Of a DNA stretch of 22,677 nt, positions 6,555-16,773 are shown one piece after another; position 1 is the first letter of the stretch, and each line of letters opens with the position of its first letter. This stretch comes from a virus. The translations under genes and the position numbers were made by a program. The notes under the pieces were generated by a model. It did not search any database and was not told where the DNA came from. It was given only the letters and a program-made list of their open reading frames with translations. The DNA lies in IMG/VR virus record IMGVR_UViG_3300031746_000185, positions 1 to 22,677 of that record, one strand, 5' to 3'.

Positions 6555-6583
6555 TTGCGGGCGTTCTTCTACAGTGATAGTAT
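6555..6583 (+). promoter_or_regulatory. Sigma-70-like promoter for the plus-strand moron gene
   Basis: TTGCGG (6555-6560), a 17-bp spacer and TAGTAT (6578-6583). The predicted start, near 6590, falls exactly at the 5' arm of the leader stem at 6591. It lies between two divergent genes. Confidence 0.5.
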
Positions 6584-6590
6584 CTCGGAA

Positions 6591-6672
6591 GGGGCGAGGC
6601 TCCAACTCCGAGGGAGTTTGCCACAACCCAGACGTCGACAAAACGCGGGCAGCAATACTGGAGCCTCGCCCC
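6591..6672 (+). promoter_or_regulatory. Structured 5' leader: 13-bp stem enclosing further hairpins
   Basis: GGGGCGAGGCTCC (6591-6603) pairs perfectly with GGAGCCTCGCCCC (6660-6672). Stacked on it is AACTCC-GAG-GGAGTT (6604-6618), and TGCC (6619-6622) can pair with GGCA (6648-6651), giving a possible three-way junction. The ribosome site AAAGGAG (6678-6684) follows directly. It would form the whole 5' UTR of the gene at 6690. It may stabilise the mRNA or bind a ligand or protein. The structure is seen in the sequence; the function is inferred. Confidence 0.6.
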
Positions 6673-6689
6673 CATTAAAGGAGAAGATC

Positions 6690-7055
6690 ATGGACATGAA
6701 TTGTGACCTGGACAACACGAGGGCATGCGGGGTGGGCAAGTATGGCCGCTGGGTACCCTTCGTCGAGCGAGTATGCTACGCCGGCAACCAGGTCCACGAC
6801 GGCTGGGCCTTCAGCGCAAAAGAACTTCAGGCTTGGAAGGACTCAGGTTTCTGGCTGCTCCACGTCTGGACGCCTGGCGGCAGGGACTTGTGGGCGAGGC
6901 TGGACCAGCCATGGAAGCCAGTCGAGGCCGGCTCGAAGGAAGAGCCCATGATGAGCCCGCAGAAGTGGTTCATGGACGTGGACGACATCCTTGGCCCGGT
7001 GAACTTCTGCCCCGACCACCCCGTCCCATACAACCCCGCAAAACACTCGATATAG
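6690..7055 (+). CDS. Unknown protein encoded by a plus-strand moron
   Basis: A 121-residue acidic, Trp-rich protein from ATG 6690, chosen because AAAGGAG lies 6 bases upstream. Segments such as YGRWVPFVERVCYAGNQVHD and GFWLLHVWTPGGRDLWARLD suggest a compact soluble domain, and there is no signal peptide or membrane segment. I do not recognise the family. It lies against the direction of all surrounding virion genes, with its own promoter, folded leader and a 17-bp hairpin starting in the stop codon. Such self-contained units (morons) often carry host-modifying or exclusion functions, but no function is visible here. Confidence 0.75.
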   Translation: MDMNCDLDNTRACGVGKYGRWVPFVERVCYAGNQVHDGWAFSAKELQAWKDSGFWLLHVWTPGGRDLWARLDQPWKPVEAGSKEEPMMSPQKWFMDVDDILGPVNFCPDHPVPYNPAKHSI

Positions 7056-7099
7056 ACGCAGAGAGGGACCCGTGGGTTGGAGGGGTCCCTCTCTGCGTC
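7055..7099. terminator. 17-bp perfect hairpin between convergent genes
   Basis: GACGCAGAGAGGGACCC (7055-7071) pairs without mismatch with its complement at 7083-7099, leaving an 11-base loop. The first base of the stem is the last base of the stop codon of the plus gene. The minus-strand capsid gene ends at 7119. It could serve both transcripts. No T-tract follows on either strand, so termination efficiency is uncertain and RNA stabilisation is an alternative. Confidence 0.7.
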
Positions 7100-7118: not shown

Positions 7119-8078
7119 TTAGCCGGCGATGCTCGTGATGCCGACGAAGTTCATGTTCCTGTGGTCTTCGTACGCCGCCGTCCACAAACCGCTCGTGAGC
7201 AGGTTGGCGTCGGTCGGGTTGGCAGTCGCCATGTAGAACGCTCTCGGAGCGGCTACATAGTCAACGGCAACCTTCTCGTACACGATGGTGTCCGCATTCG
7301 TCACGTCTTCCCAACCGTCCACGTACGGGGCTTGCTGGTGCGAGAAGTACAGCGCACCCTCGCCGAGCAAGTGGGTGTAGTAGATGTCGTCGCCAGCCGA
7401 GGACGTGGCGCCCGCTTCCGGGGTCAGGTCGTCGCTGATGATGACGTTGCGCACGCCGAGGATCGTCTCGATCATGCCGTTGTTGATGATCTCGCCGGAC
7501 CAGACGCCAGCGTACTTGTACGTGCTGATGAGGTCCTTGAGCAGGCTGTTCCAAGGCTTGCTGTGGATCAGCATGGTATGGAGCTGATCGGCGTTGTCGC
7601 CCATCTTGGCTCGGCCTTCTTGGACCGCCAGAACCGTGAGGGTTCCGCCGGTTACGTACTTGTGTGGGGTGGCTCCGACGTTCTCGCAAGCCTGAAGCGA
7701 GTAGTCCATGACCTTGATCGAGCGCTTGGCGAGCTGGTTACCAATCGTCACGGCAACCTTCTGTCCAAAGTCCTCGCCGGCCAACGCTAGCTGGTGCTTG
7801 TACCACTTGTTGCCGCTGTAGTCACGAAGGACCGGCACCTTGCCGTCGTTCGTGGCGAACGCGGTGAAGGACGCAGAGGACGTGGCGCCAATCGCGACCC
7901 GGCCGAACGCTGCGGCCTGCACGTACTTCGGGATGTTGACGAACTCGCCGCCTTGGGCGGTCAAGTTTGCGGTCGAGACATCCAGCGCACCGGATGCCAT
8001 GAGAGCAGCGAACTTTTGCTGAGAAAAAAGTCCCTGCGGCAAATAACGCGTTTGAATTACAGGAGTGTAAATTGCCAA
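7119..8078 (-). CDS. Major capsid protein
   Basis: A 319-residue protein if it starts at TTG 8078. AAGGAG lies 8 bases upstream of this TTG and the product would begin MAIYTPVIQTRYLPQG, a typical capsid opening. The frame is open up to 8252, but that stretch is a structured leader and translates to unlikely sequence. The body is rich in Ala, Gly, Thr and Val, with segments such as YKHQLALAGEDFGQKVAVTIG and VRNVIISDDLTPEAG like other phage capsid proteins. It follows the scaffold gene by two small ORFs, the normal order. It has its own promoter and leader, consistent with high expression. Which capsid family it belongs to is not certain. Confidence 0.85.
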   Translation of the reverse strand: MAIYTPVIQTRYLPQGLFSQQKFAALMASGALDVSTANLTAQGGEFVNIPKYVQAAAFGRVAIGATSSASFTAFATNDGKVPVLRDYSGNKWYKHQLALAGEDFGQKVAVTIGNQLAKRSIKVMDYSLQACENVGATPHKYVTGGTLTVLAVQEGRAKMGDNADQLHTMLIHSKPWNSLLKDLISTYKYAGVWSGEIINNGMIETILGVRNVIISDDLTPEAGATSSAGDDIYYTHLLGEGALYFSHQQAPYVDGWEDVTNADTIVYEKVAVDYVAAPRAFYMATANPTDANLLTSGLWTAAYEDHRNMNFVGITSIAG

Positions 8079-8191
8079 GTTGGTGGCTCCTTGCAAAGTC
8101 TTGGGAGGGATTCTTGCTCCAGCGGCGTACGCTGGTTGCTCACCCGTACCCCACAAGCCGAGCTCCGCAAGGCCAGAGGAACAAGCCCGAC

Positions 8192-8221
8192 GGCTCTCCG
8201 AGCCTGGGACTGTCCCTATCC
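8192..8221 (-). repeat. Leader module copy 3 (before capsid gene)
   Basis: Read on the minus strand it has GGATAGGGAC with the palindrome GGGAC-A-GTCCC (8206-8216), then the hairpin GGCTC-GGA-GAGCC (8192-8204). The same elements occur before the scaffold gene and before the methylase gene. Here they lie at the predicted start of the capsid transcript. Confidence 0.6.
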
Positions 8222-8223
8222 CG

Positions 8224-8252
8224 ATAATACTTGACAAGGGGCAAGGCCCCAA
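8224..8252 (-). promoter_or_regulatory. Promoter for the major capsid gene
   Basis: On the minus strand TTGGGG (8252-8247), a 17-bp spacer and TATTAT (8229-8224). The -35 is weak and the -10 is good. Transcription would start near 8217, giving a leader of about 140 nt. The site lies inside an imperfect palindrome (ATACTTG...CAAGTAT) shared with an opposing promoter. Confidence 0.5.
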
Positions 8253-8259
8253 GTATCAT
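8231..8259 (+). promoter_or_regulatory. Strong sigma-70-like promoter reading away from the capsid gene
   Basis: TTGACA (8231-8236), exactly 17 bp, then TATCAT (8254-8259). The -35 is a perfect consensus and the -10 matches 5 of 6 positions. The -35 elements of this and the capsid promoter lie between the two -10 elements, a back-to-back overlapping pair, so polymerase may occupy only one at a time. Confidence 0.6.
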
Positions 8260-8265
8260 GAAGGC

Positions 8266-8376
8266 ATCGGGGCTGCAACCCTCACCCGGGAGTTGCCCCG
8301 GCTCCCATGCGGGCCAGAACCTATCATGGGATGACGCCCCTGGATGACCAATAGGCTCCAGGGGCGTATCTTTTTT
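8266..8376 (+). ncRNA. Candidate small RNA of about 110 nt
   Basis: A near-consensus promoter is followed about 110 nt later by a T6 intrinsic terminator, with no ORF that has a ribosome site in between. The only ATG frame begins inside the -10 box. The predicted RNA can form a 5' hairpin (GCAAC near 8274 with GTTGC near 8293, flanked by CGGG/CCCG) and the terminator stem. It is not antisense to any gene found here. A regulatory or packaging role is possible. Ends are predictions from the promoter and T-tract. Confidence 0.5.
8334..8376 (+). terminator. Intrinsic terminator, plus strand
   Basis: ACGCCCCTGGA (8334-8344) pairs with TCCAGGGGCGT (8357-8367), an 11-bp stem with a 12-base loop, followed by ATC and T6 (8371-8376). 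The stem closely matches the terminator-like hairpin at 18457-18490. Confidence 0.85.
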
Positions 8377-8387
8377 AATCTCAAATT

Positions 8388-8412
8388 AAAAACCCCGACC
8401 ACGAGGCCGGGG
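8388..8412 (-). terminator. Intrinsic terminator, minus strand, ending the terminase-scaffold transcript
   Basis: On the minus strand CCCCG-G-CC, loop TCGT, then GG-T-CGGGG and a T5 run (8392-8388). The stem has 7 pairs and one mismatch. It lies about 50 bases after the KTSC stop, which explains why the capsid gene needs its own promoter. Bases 8079-8463 otherwise hold no gene, only leader, promoters, the small RNA candidate and the two terminators. Confidence 0.8.
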
Positions 8413-8463
8413 CGGAACAGGAGTGACCCCATCCAGCTCGAATGAGGCACTGATCAGGACTAA

Positions 8464-8664
8464 TTATACGTCGTACGTTGGCTTGATCTCGGCGTTGAAA
8501 AACTGCCCCTTTGACGCAGCCTCGACGAATTCTTGGTACGTGTCCGGGTCGACGCCTTGATACTCGTAGGGCCCACGATCCGCTATCCAGACGATCAGCA
8601 GCTCTTTATCCTCGTCGTAGGACAAGGCGTCTATGAAGCTTGACGTGACGTATTGGGTCAGCAT
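8464..8664 (-). CDS. KTSC-domain protein
   Basis: A 66-residue protein matching the whole of the small KTSC domain. The opening TSSFIDALSYDEDKELLIVW, the central YEYQGVDPDTYQEFVEA and the ending SKGQFFNAEIKPTY correspond to the family pattern 'SS-x-I-x-xhxYd...L-x-hxF...YxYxxVpxxxYxxhxxAxSxGxyhnxxIxxxY'. KTSC domains are common in phages and bacteria as stand-alone genes or fused to other domains. Their biochemical role is not established, with nucleic-acid or ribosome-related functions suggested. It is the last gene of the transcript that begins upstream of the scaffold. Confidence 0.75.
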   Translation of the reverse strand: MLTQYVTSSFIDALSYDEDKELLIVWIADRGPYEYQGVDPDTYQEFVEAASKGQFFNAEIKPTYDV

Positions 8665-8665
8665 G

Positions 8666-8854
8666 TCACTTGGCCCCGGCTGATTCCATGCAGCTACCCC
8701 TCACGATCATTATCCAGTCGAATAGCAATAGCTTCGCCCGCCTTGGGCCAACTTCAGCCAAGGCCGAGGAGTAGACCACTTTGGCCTGCTCCTCGACCTC
8801 GGGCGAGTCCTTCAGTTCAACTGCCCAGTTGCGTATGAACTCGTGGATGTCCAT
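8666..8854 (-). CDS. Small unknown protein
   Basis: A 62-residue helical protein (MDIHEFIRNWAVELKDSPEV opening). It is coupled to the scaffold stop by TAATG and followed by the KTSC gene after one base. It has two predicted helices and no cysteine cluster or membrane segment. I do not recognise it. Position between scaffold and capsid suggests a head-assembly or decoration-related role, but nothing in the residues shows this. Confidence 0.6.
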   Translation of the reverse strand: MDIHEFIRNWAVELKDSPEVEEQAKVVYSSALAEVGPRRAKLLLFDWIMIVRGSCMESAGAK

Positions 8855-14675: not shown

Positions 14676-15386
14676 TCATACCTTTCGGGGCGTATACCTA
14701 CCAGATCTGCGTCCCCTTGGGGTACTCTTGCCCGTGCTGTCCCTCTTGCCCATGCCCGGATCATAGGTTCCCAGAACTTTGAGTTCCATTTGGCGGTAAT
14801 GCTCTGGTGACCACTTCCGGTTTGCCAGAGCAGCAGCGTCTTCAATACTCAGTTGCCCCACAATGCGCAGGGCTAGGTATTTACGGCTGGCGAGTTGCCA
14901 TTCGTTGGTGCTGCCGGCCTGGAAGGAGCCAAGGAGCTGGAAGAGGTCGACGAGCAAGTCCTGGGCTGGGTTCTCGTCGCCTGGTTCAGGGGCATTGCTT
15001 GGGACATGGGCGTAATCATGTCCTTCTTCGAGGGACGACTCGGAAGCCCATGCCATGGGCCTATGTCTTCCGTGGTACTGCGAATGGTTGCTGATCCAGC
15101 GGAACCAGCACGATCTGATCCACATGGGCCAGTTCACCATTGAAACCGGGAATGTCTTGGCCCATTTGGGGACCCTGATGAACAGTTCTTGTTCCAGGTC
15201 TTCGACGCCCATGGAGGGATCGTGGCCTGACATACGGGAGCGTGCTTCGATACCCTTATGCAGGTATGCCACGGTCTGTTCCCATAGGAATACGAGCTCG
15301 TCCGGGCTAGCTGAGCCGGCCTGGATGAGGCGGACAACCCGGATACAGCCTGGGTTGTCTATGCCTGCTTCTTCGGGACAGTCCAT
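14676..15386 (-). CDS. Putative sigma-70-like transcription factor
   Basis: A 236-residue protein from ATG 15386. A GTG at 15404 would add 6 residues. Residues about 28-105 resemble sigma region 2: SPDELVFLWEQTVAYLHKGI, then DLEQELFIRVPKW and MWIRSCWFRWISNH, like the 'DLxQExFhxhhxxxxxF....WhxxhxxN' core. Residues about 165-205 (YLALRIVGQLSIEDAAALAN) look like region 4 helix-turn-helix. The tail is basic (PRGRRSGRYTPRKV). The gene lies 57 bases before the terminase operon, fitting a late-gene activator. The similarity is remote and judged by eye. A different helical DNA-binding protein is possible. Confidence 0.55.
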   Translation of the reverse strand: MDCPEEAGIDNPGCIRVVRLIQAGSASPDELVFLWEQTVAYLHKGIEARSRMSGHDPSMGVEDLEQELFIRVPKWAKTFPVSMVNWPMWIRSCWFRWISNHSQYHGRHRPMAWASESSLEEGHDYAHVPSNAPEPGDENPAQDLLVDLFQLLGSFQAGSTNEWQLASRKYLALRIVGQLSIEDAAALANRKWSPEHYRQMELKVLGTYDPGMGKRDSTGKSTPRGRRSGRYTPRKV

Positions 15387-15538
15387 CGGGTTCGATCCCC
15401 GCACTTCTTACAGACGAGTTGGAAGCCATGAAAGTTGCCCTCGCTGACGTGGGTAACTTCCCTCATGGACTTGCACTTGGGGCAGGCGAAAGCCCTCTGC
15501 TTCTCCATGAACTTCTCCAGTTGGGTTCGCTTCTTCAT
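15359..15538 (-). CDS. Small zinc-ribbon protein
   Basis: A 59-residue protein with CPKC (C19, C22) and CKKC (C43, C46), a complete four-cysteine zinc ribbon, between Lys-rich ends. Its ATG overlaps the TGA of the upstream sigma/ribbon protein (ATGA), and its end overlaps the start of the next sigma-like gene. The three are therefore probably translated as a coupled set. Single ribbons of this kind bind DNA, RNA or RNA polymerase. The exact partner cannot be told. Confidence 0.75.
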   Translation of the reverse strand: MKKRTQLEKFMEKQRAFACPKCKSMREVTHVSEGNFHGFQLVCKKCGDRTRWTVPKKQA

Positions 15539-16773
15539 TCCTTCTTGCCTCCCCTTGCATGGCTTGAAGATGGCTTGCAGTCCCAGCACAGGGACCGTCC
15601 GACGAGGTGCATGTGGCGATTGAATTCGTTGCCGCACCTTTGGCACTTGACCACGACCATGGCCGACGAGGTGACTGGCTGGCATTCCCAGCACCGTTTG
15701 CGACCCAAGGACGTGAACCCGTGGATGGAGAATGGCTTGCCACACTTCTCGCATTCATTGTCCTGGAACTTCCTCCTTGGAGTTGCCTTCCTGGAGAATG
15801 GGGGAGCGCAGTCGAAGCACGTGGTCCTCTTGTGGTGGTAGCTAGTGCCCACCACGAACGTCCCCCCGCACTTGTCGCATGTCCTGTCCCTCTTGAGCGG
15901 CTTGGCCCTGGGCTTGCAATCCCAGCAGGTGGTCCTCCAGGCATGGCCTTGGCCCGTTGGCACGGAGGTCCTGAATTCCTTGCCGCACTTGTCGCACTCT
16001 ATGTCCATGTTCTTCTTGCGCTTGGGGACGCAGTCCCAGCAGTAGGTTCGCGGGGACGAGTACTTGTTCTTGACCAGGAACGACTTCCCGCACTTGTCGC
16101 ACGTCCTGGTTCCCTTGCCCCAGAGGGAAGGGTCCCTTGGGTCGGCCCTCTGCTTGTCCCTGTTCGCCGCCAAGGCTGCCAGTTCCTTCTCGCTCTTCCC
16201 CCAGTTCTCCTTGGCGAAGGCACGCAGCTTGTGGACCATGCGCTGCTTCGAGTTGTCCCTTGACTTGTTGAATTCCGGGCCCTTGTCGCCCGACAACATC
16301 AGGTCCAGCTCCAGCTTCTCCGGGTCCGTGAGGCGCAGGTACCTTGCAAGGCGAATCACCTCGTCCAGTTCCGACTTGGCATCGAGCCACTTCTTCTCGA
16401 TCCTGTCCCTGATCCACCCTGGATTCATAAGCTCCTCCATGGACATGAGGTCGTCGGAGCTCTCCAGCCTCTTGTCCATGTCGTTGTTCAGGCTCACGAG
16501 CGACATCCCCCGGGGGACGTTCCGCCTGAACGAGGATGACCTGAGGAACGTGCGGGCACGGTTCATGAAGCACGTGCTCAGCCACGTCGAGAAGGAGCTC
16601 TTGGACTTGTCGTAATGACGCCATATCCTGGGCAGGTCCAGCAGGCACCAGGAGGCGCAGTCCTCCTGGTCGTGGAGCCTCTTGACGCACTTCTTGGCGC
16701 AGAGCCTGGCCATGTCGAGGGCGTCGGACCAGGCTTCCTCGGTGAGCGGCAGGGGGTTGGCATGGCTTCCCAT
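15535..16773 (-). CDS. Sigma-like protein fused to five zinc ribbons
   Basis: A 412-residue protein. Residues about 35-90 (ASWCLLDLPRIWRHYDKSKS, FSTWLSTCFMNRARTFL) resemble sigma region 2. Residues about 138-190 (LTDPEKLELDLMLSGDK, then SRDNSKQRMVHKLRAF) resemble region 4 with a recognition helix. Residues 225-399 hold five ribbons, each CxxCGxxF...CxxC: C225/228-C245/248, C260/263-C283/286, C299/302-C319/322, C341/344-C361/364 and C377/380-C396/399. Most end CWDC followed by Lys-Pro. The ribbon array is clear. The sigma part is a remote match judged by eye. I know of no family with this layout. Upstream ribosome signals are weak. Confidence 0.65.
   Translation of the reverse strand: MGSHANPLPLTEEAWSDALDMARLCAKKCVKRLHDQEDCASWCLLDLPRIWRHYDKSKSSFSTWLSTCFMNRARTFLRSSSFRRNVPRGMSLVSLNNDMDKRLESSDDLMSMEELMNPGWIRDRIEKKWLDAKSELDEVIRLARYLRLTDPEKLELDLMLSGDKGPEFNKSRDNSKQRMVHKLRAFAKENWGKSEKELAALAANRDKQRADPRDPSLWGKGTRTCDKCGKSFLVKNKYSSPRTYCWDCVPKRKKNMDIECDKCGKEFRTSVPTGQGHAWRTTCWDCKPRAKPLKRDRTCDKCGGTFVVGTSYHHKRTTCFDCAPPFSRKATPRRKFQDNECEKCGKPFSIHGFTSLGRKRCWECQPVTSSAMVVVKCQRCGNEFNRHMHLVGRSLCWDCKPSSSHARGGKKE

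Follow-up and report, generated by a model that had tools for sequence, protein, structure and literature searches.

A candidate small non-coding RNA unit opposite the capsid gene of an uncultured bacterial virus, with a promoter overlapping the probable capsid promoter

A good candidate for a phage small RNA (sRNA) of a known kind was found on the strand opposite to the capsid gene of an uncultured bacterial virus. The DNA analysed, hereafter the window, is a single virus record of 22,677 bases (IMGVR_UViG_3300031746_000185). In the predicted unit a near-consensus promoter is followed by an intrinsic terminator, with no gene in between. It had been spotted earlier by a model given the letters and a list of open reading frames (the sequence-only reading), in our judgement correctly, and it appears to be an orphan. 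Gene callers pass over autonomous non-coding units, so those in phage late regions seldom receive an annotation. If this one is transcribed, it would represent a new phage sRNA family, and its overlap with the capsid promoter would make it simple to test whether such units set the timing of structural gene expression. The features of the locus are as follows.

8231..8259, + strand: candidate sRNA promoter, TTGACA-17-TATCAT, 11/12 matches to the sigma-70 consensus
8266..8376, + strand: predicted non-coding RNA, ~111 nt, folding into three successive hairpins at −57 kcal/mol (z −3.8 to −4.2)
8268..8301, + strand: hairpin 1, loop UCACCC; z −2.2 alone
8303..8331, + strand: hairpin 2, loop CCAGAA; z −2.2 alone
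8334..8376, + strand: intrinsic terminator, 11-bp stem, 12-nt loop and T6, its stem detected in the joint scan; z −5.5 alone
8224..8252, − strand: probable capsid promoter, TTGGGG-17-TATTAT, 8/12 matches, predicted
8079..8217, − strand: predicted capsid mRNA leader
7119..8078, − strand: major capsid protein (Gp13-like), TTG start at 8078 after AAGGAG
8387..8413, − strand: intrinsic terminator ending the upstream scaffold-KTSC operon, in convergent orientation to the sRNA terminator
8464..8854, − strand: KTSC-domain protein and 62-aa protein, encoded between the scaffold and capsid genes; they belong to a block not seen at that place in distant relatives

The promoter that the sequence-only reading had placed opposite the capsid gene was found exactly as described, with boxes TTGACA at 8231-8236 and TATCAT at 8254-8259 of the + strand separated by 17 bp. 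It is the best sigma-70-type match and the sole 11/12 site in the window as scored with the general sigma-70 consensus, and we assume that it would be read by the sigma-70-type polymerase of the host. The pattern TTGACA-N15-19-TATNAT occurs once in the window, compared to 0.01 occurrences expected by shuffling. The T6 terminator reported about 110 nt further on also proved to be real, giving a predicted RNA of 111 nt that extends from A8266 to T8376. The GC-rich stem is formed by arms ACGCCCCTGGA (8334-8344) and TCCAGGGGCGT (8357-8367) and is followed by ATC and by the T-run at 8371-8376. A T-run that begins 3 nt past the stem makes this a slightly poorer structure than an ideal intrinsic terminator. 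A generic terminator scan, which allows loops of up to 8 nt, missed it because of its longer loop.

Promoter and terminator were also considered together, a joint event being defined as a promoter with at least 10/12 matches plus a stem of at least 8 bp with a T-rich tail 50-260 nt downstream. Such an event was found once in the window and in none of 300 dinucleotide-shuffled windows; four were found in 2.12 Mb of other loci, every one of them with a 10/12 promoter. The nearest gene-like ORF upstream on the + strand (6690-7055) stops at a hairpin of its own (7055-7099), so within the sequence examined the terminator has no evident use besides stopping RNA initiated at the 8231 promoter. The two signals, therefore, support each other.

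The claim that no translatable ORF lies between them was borne out. Coding signal is absent from the overlapping frames, which gave codon log-odds of −0.08 to −0.18 per codon against +0.26 to +0.50 in genes of this phage, and the longest ATG frame wholly within the RNA has 15 codons and lacks a well-placed RBS. The locus, in other words, has sequence features expected of an autonomous phage sRNA: its own promoter, its own terminator within 50-500 nt downstream and no translated ORF. Given the strong promoter, the dedicated terminator, the lack of an ORF and the exclusion of chance, the sequence gives good support to the prediction of a non-coding transcription unit, and the RNA is probably made. 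The idea of a small RNA produced from a promoter and terminator without a gene thus stood, whereas a packaging role and antisense control of the capsid gene did not, as described below. The significance of the fold comes mostly from the terminator. Hairpins 1 and 2 together gave z −2.1, a value matched by 7% of random windows of equal length; their structure is only modestly significant and is no more than suggestive.

The sRNA promoter had been described as back to back with the capsid promoter. The two are indeed on opposite strands, but they are not merely adjacent. On the − strand the capsid promoter boxes, TTGGGG (8252-8247) and TATTAT (8229-8224), are separated by 17 bp, and the two promoters overlap by 22 bp; a partial dyad, CAAGTATTATC / CAAGTATCATG, holds both −10 boxes. 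With such an overlap polymerase could occupy only one promoter at a time, and the promoters would compete if both are used; the 8/12 capsid promoter, however, may not be the real one. The TTG start of the capsid gene agrees with the aligned N-termini of four homologues, and codon statistics indicate that the frame upstream of it is non-coding.

An arrangement of this kind might be a simple divergent promoter pair yielding a functionless antisense RNA, with a terminator that only keeps this by-product out of the scaffold operon. Bacterial promoters commonly give divergent transcripts, which often do not code for protein (PMC10268837); the modest significance of the 5′ hairpins and the failure to find a target for the RNA among phage start regions point the same way. 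However, in a typical bidirectional promoter of the Warman class a single −10 box serves two start sites separated by 7-25 bp (PMC10268837), while the predicted starts of the sRNA and of the capsid mRNA are ~49 bp apart and are served by two full sets of boxes. In addition, the antisense promoter is the stronger match of the two, 11/12 against 8/12. We regard a by-product, the chief competitor of our preferred reading, as possible but rather doubtful.

Our preferred reading, to which we give an even chance, is that the locus holds a self-contained RNA unit resembling a moron, and that its host-type promoter and the capsid promoter compete. Moron-type accessory loci, e.g. STMMW_20121, lie opposite lytic genes, have their own promoter and code for protein (PMC7067206). 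The present unit resembles them in its independent promoter, opposite strand and position inside the late region, but has no ORF. The locus would then be a small transcription unit without a protein, set in the scaffold-capsid block. Host sigma-70-type polymerase would start at about 8266 and stop at 8376, producing a non-coding RNA with a tight fold, and polymerase bound at one of the overlapping promoters would exclude the other. The sRNA may be made in early infection or lysogeny, holding the capsid promoter down, and the late programme, with two candidate sigma-like proteins encoded by the phage, may later favour the capsid strand. If stable, the RNA may add a role in trans in the host. 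That occlusion of the capsid promoter by the strong host-type promoter is itself a timer, with the RNA strand on under host sigma and the capsid strand on once a phage sigma appears, seems to us quite improbable.

The surroundings of the unit were compared with those in other phages. The convergent terminators at 8334..8376 and 8387..8413 would insulate it from the scaffold operon, which we take as support for a separate unit. Capsid homologues were located in 28 loci of distant phages, at a capsid identity of about 25%. In 27 of these the distance from the capsid gene to the previous ORF of at least 80 aa is 41-263 nt, mostly 75-100 nt; here the capsid gene is 386 nt from the KTSC gene and 775 nt from the scaffold gene. 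The block comprising the 62-aa gene, the KTSC gene, the terminator, the sRNA unit and the capsid promoter looks lineage-specific, either gained here or lost elsewhere. The KTSC-domain protein (8464-8664, − strand) was recognized by a match to PF13619 (E 3e-18), and the distant relatives examined have little room at that place.

A moron could also have lost its protein gene and left only the promoter and terminator behind. The real-looking + strand gene at 6690-7055, across the capsid gene from the sRNA unit, indicates that opposite-strand insertions occur here, but 8266-8376 contains no decayed ORF, RBS or coding composition, and such a remnant is very unlikely.

The OOP RNA of phage lambda is transcribed from its own promoter to an intrinsic terminator, divergently from the main operon. 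It is 77 nt long and antisense to cII mRNA (PMC12197685). The candidate shares with it the small size, the independent promoter and the intrinsic terminator; unlike OOP, it overlaps no predicted mRNA and sits in the head region. In prophage BTP1, the 786-nt RNA STnc6030, fully antisense to tailspike/injection genes (PMC7067206), is likewise a non-coding RNA opposite structural genes, but the candidate is ~111 nt long and intergenic. Capsid regulation, raised in the sequence-only reading, is not supported in an antisense form by these coordinates: as far as the predicted mRNA ends can be relied on, the RNA (8266-8376) lies outside the capsid mRNA, which starts from 8217, and beyond the terminator of the scaffold operon.

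Alternatively, the RNA could act in trans in the manner of OOP, sar, c4 or PreS, by pairing with mRNAs of the phage or the host. In length and in its promoter-terminator layout it resembles trans-encoded phage sRNAs, which measure 50-125 nt (PMC12197685), and an 8-bp match, CUCACCCG/CGGGUGAG, connects the hairpin-1 loop region with the capsid leader at 8139-8146. Complementarity to phage mRNAs, proposed as a check of the original idea, was assessed as accessibility-weighted pairing with phage start regions in comparison with 60 shuffles. Pairing with the start regions was equalled or beaten by all 60 shuffles, and pairing with the capsid leader by 9 of 60, so better-than-chance accessible seed pairing was not seen in either. 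The result for the start regions indicates that the RNA is tightly folded and exposes little seed; there is no long unpaired seed outside the loops. Regulation by pairing in trans is, in our view, unlikely.

The late genes are read leftward in the order TerS, TerL, portal, DNA methyltransferase, scaffold, 62-aa protein, KTSC-domain protein, capsid and tail genes. This layout bears on the proposal that the RNA acts in the head like the packaging RNA (pRNA) of phi29, a small structured phage RNA of 174 nt. Apart from closeness to the capsid gene nothing speaks for such a role, which we consider extremely improbable. The phage has TerS, TerL and an SPP1-like portal, the terminase genes are ~4.5 kb away from the unit, and no Rfam pRNA model matches it. 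The candidate also differs from pRNA in length, and by inspection its loops are not mutually complementary.

Searches of phages, plasmids, viral contigs and sampled genomes turned up no homologue of the sRNA locus. Rfam searches at gathering and relaxed thresholds returned nothing on the + strand unit; weak − strand matches, far below the cut-off, fell mostly on the neighbouring terminator. Scans of viral contigs with the capsid, the portal and the + strand gene yielded no confirmed relatives. TerL scans revealed one close relative (L002, 87%); its contig breaks off within TerL and does not reach the sRNA locus. The remaining TerL relatives have at most ~33% identity across most of the protein. 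A search with the hairpin-1 pattern gave no match, and the terminator-stem pattern was found in four contigs, two of them near-identical to each other and none with the sRNA unit. A covariance model was built from the single sequence and as such is not evidence of a family. It detected nothing convincing in the other loci examined, where one contig that the terminator pattern had brought in (L163) scored 25 bits. In 398 genomes from the phylum of a betaproteobacterial genome the model had no match, and plasmid and phage DNA contained nothing relevant to the locus. In 297 genomes of another phylum there were three weak matches, the best at 34 bits. These were rejected as chance: the 5′ hairpins are shortened in two of the alignments, and the second-best match (L247) overlaps a coding sequence.

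Several further features of the window were recorded. The predicted capsid leader begins with two mini-hairpins, GGGACAGTCCC and GGCTCGGAGAGCC (8190-8216, − strand). Five distant relatives (L003, L004, L017, L065 and L088) have, in the gap between scaffold and capsid genes, tandem mini-hairpins with 3-nt loops, of the GGGC-TGC-GCCC type, just upstream of the capsid gene; the leader structures are similar to these, though the sequences differ. Two sigma-like candidates are encoded on the − strand just upstream of TerS, at 14676-15404 and 15535-16773. The latter, which is the larger, contains Sigma70 region 2 (PF04542, E 7e-7) and, after it, repeats of a CxxC motif resembling a zinc ribbon. The former, sigma-like by eye only and with no PHROG match, is 65% identical to its L002 counterpart.

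The + strand ORF at 6690-7055 is a genuine-looking 121-aa gene opposite the late genes (codon log-odds 0.36, GC3 0.81). Its product has no PHROG match, and a viral-contig scan found no relatives of it. The leader of this gene (6576-6689) carries a perfect 14-bp inverted repeat (about 6593-6606 / 6659-6672) that ends just before the RBS. The hairpin at 7055-7099, between the converging ends of the capsid and + strand genes, is a perfect 17-bp inverted repeat with an 11-nt spacer and no T-run, and is perhaps a shared factor-dependent terminator or an RNA-processing site.
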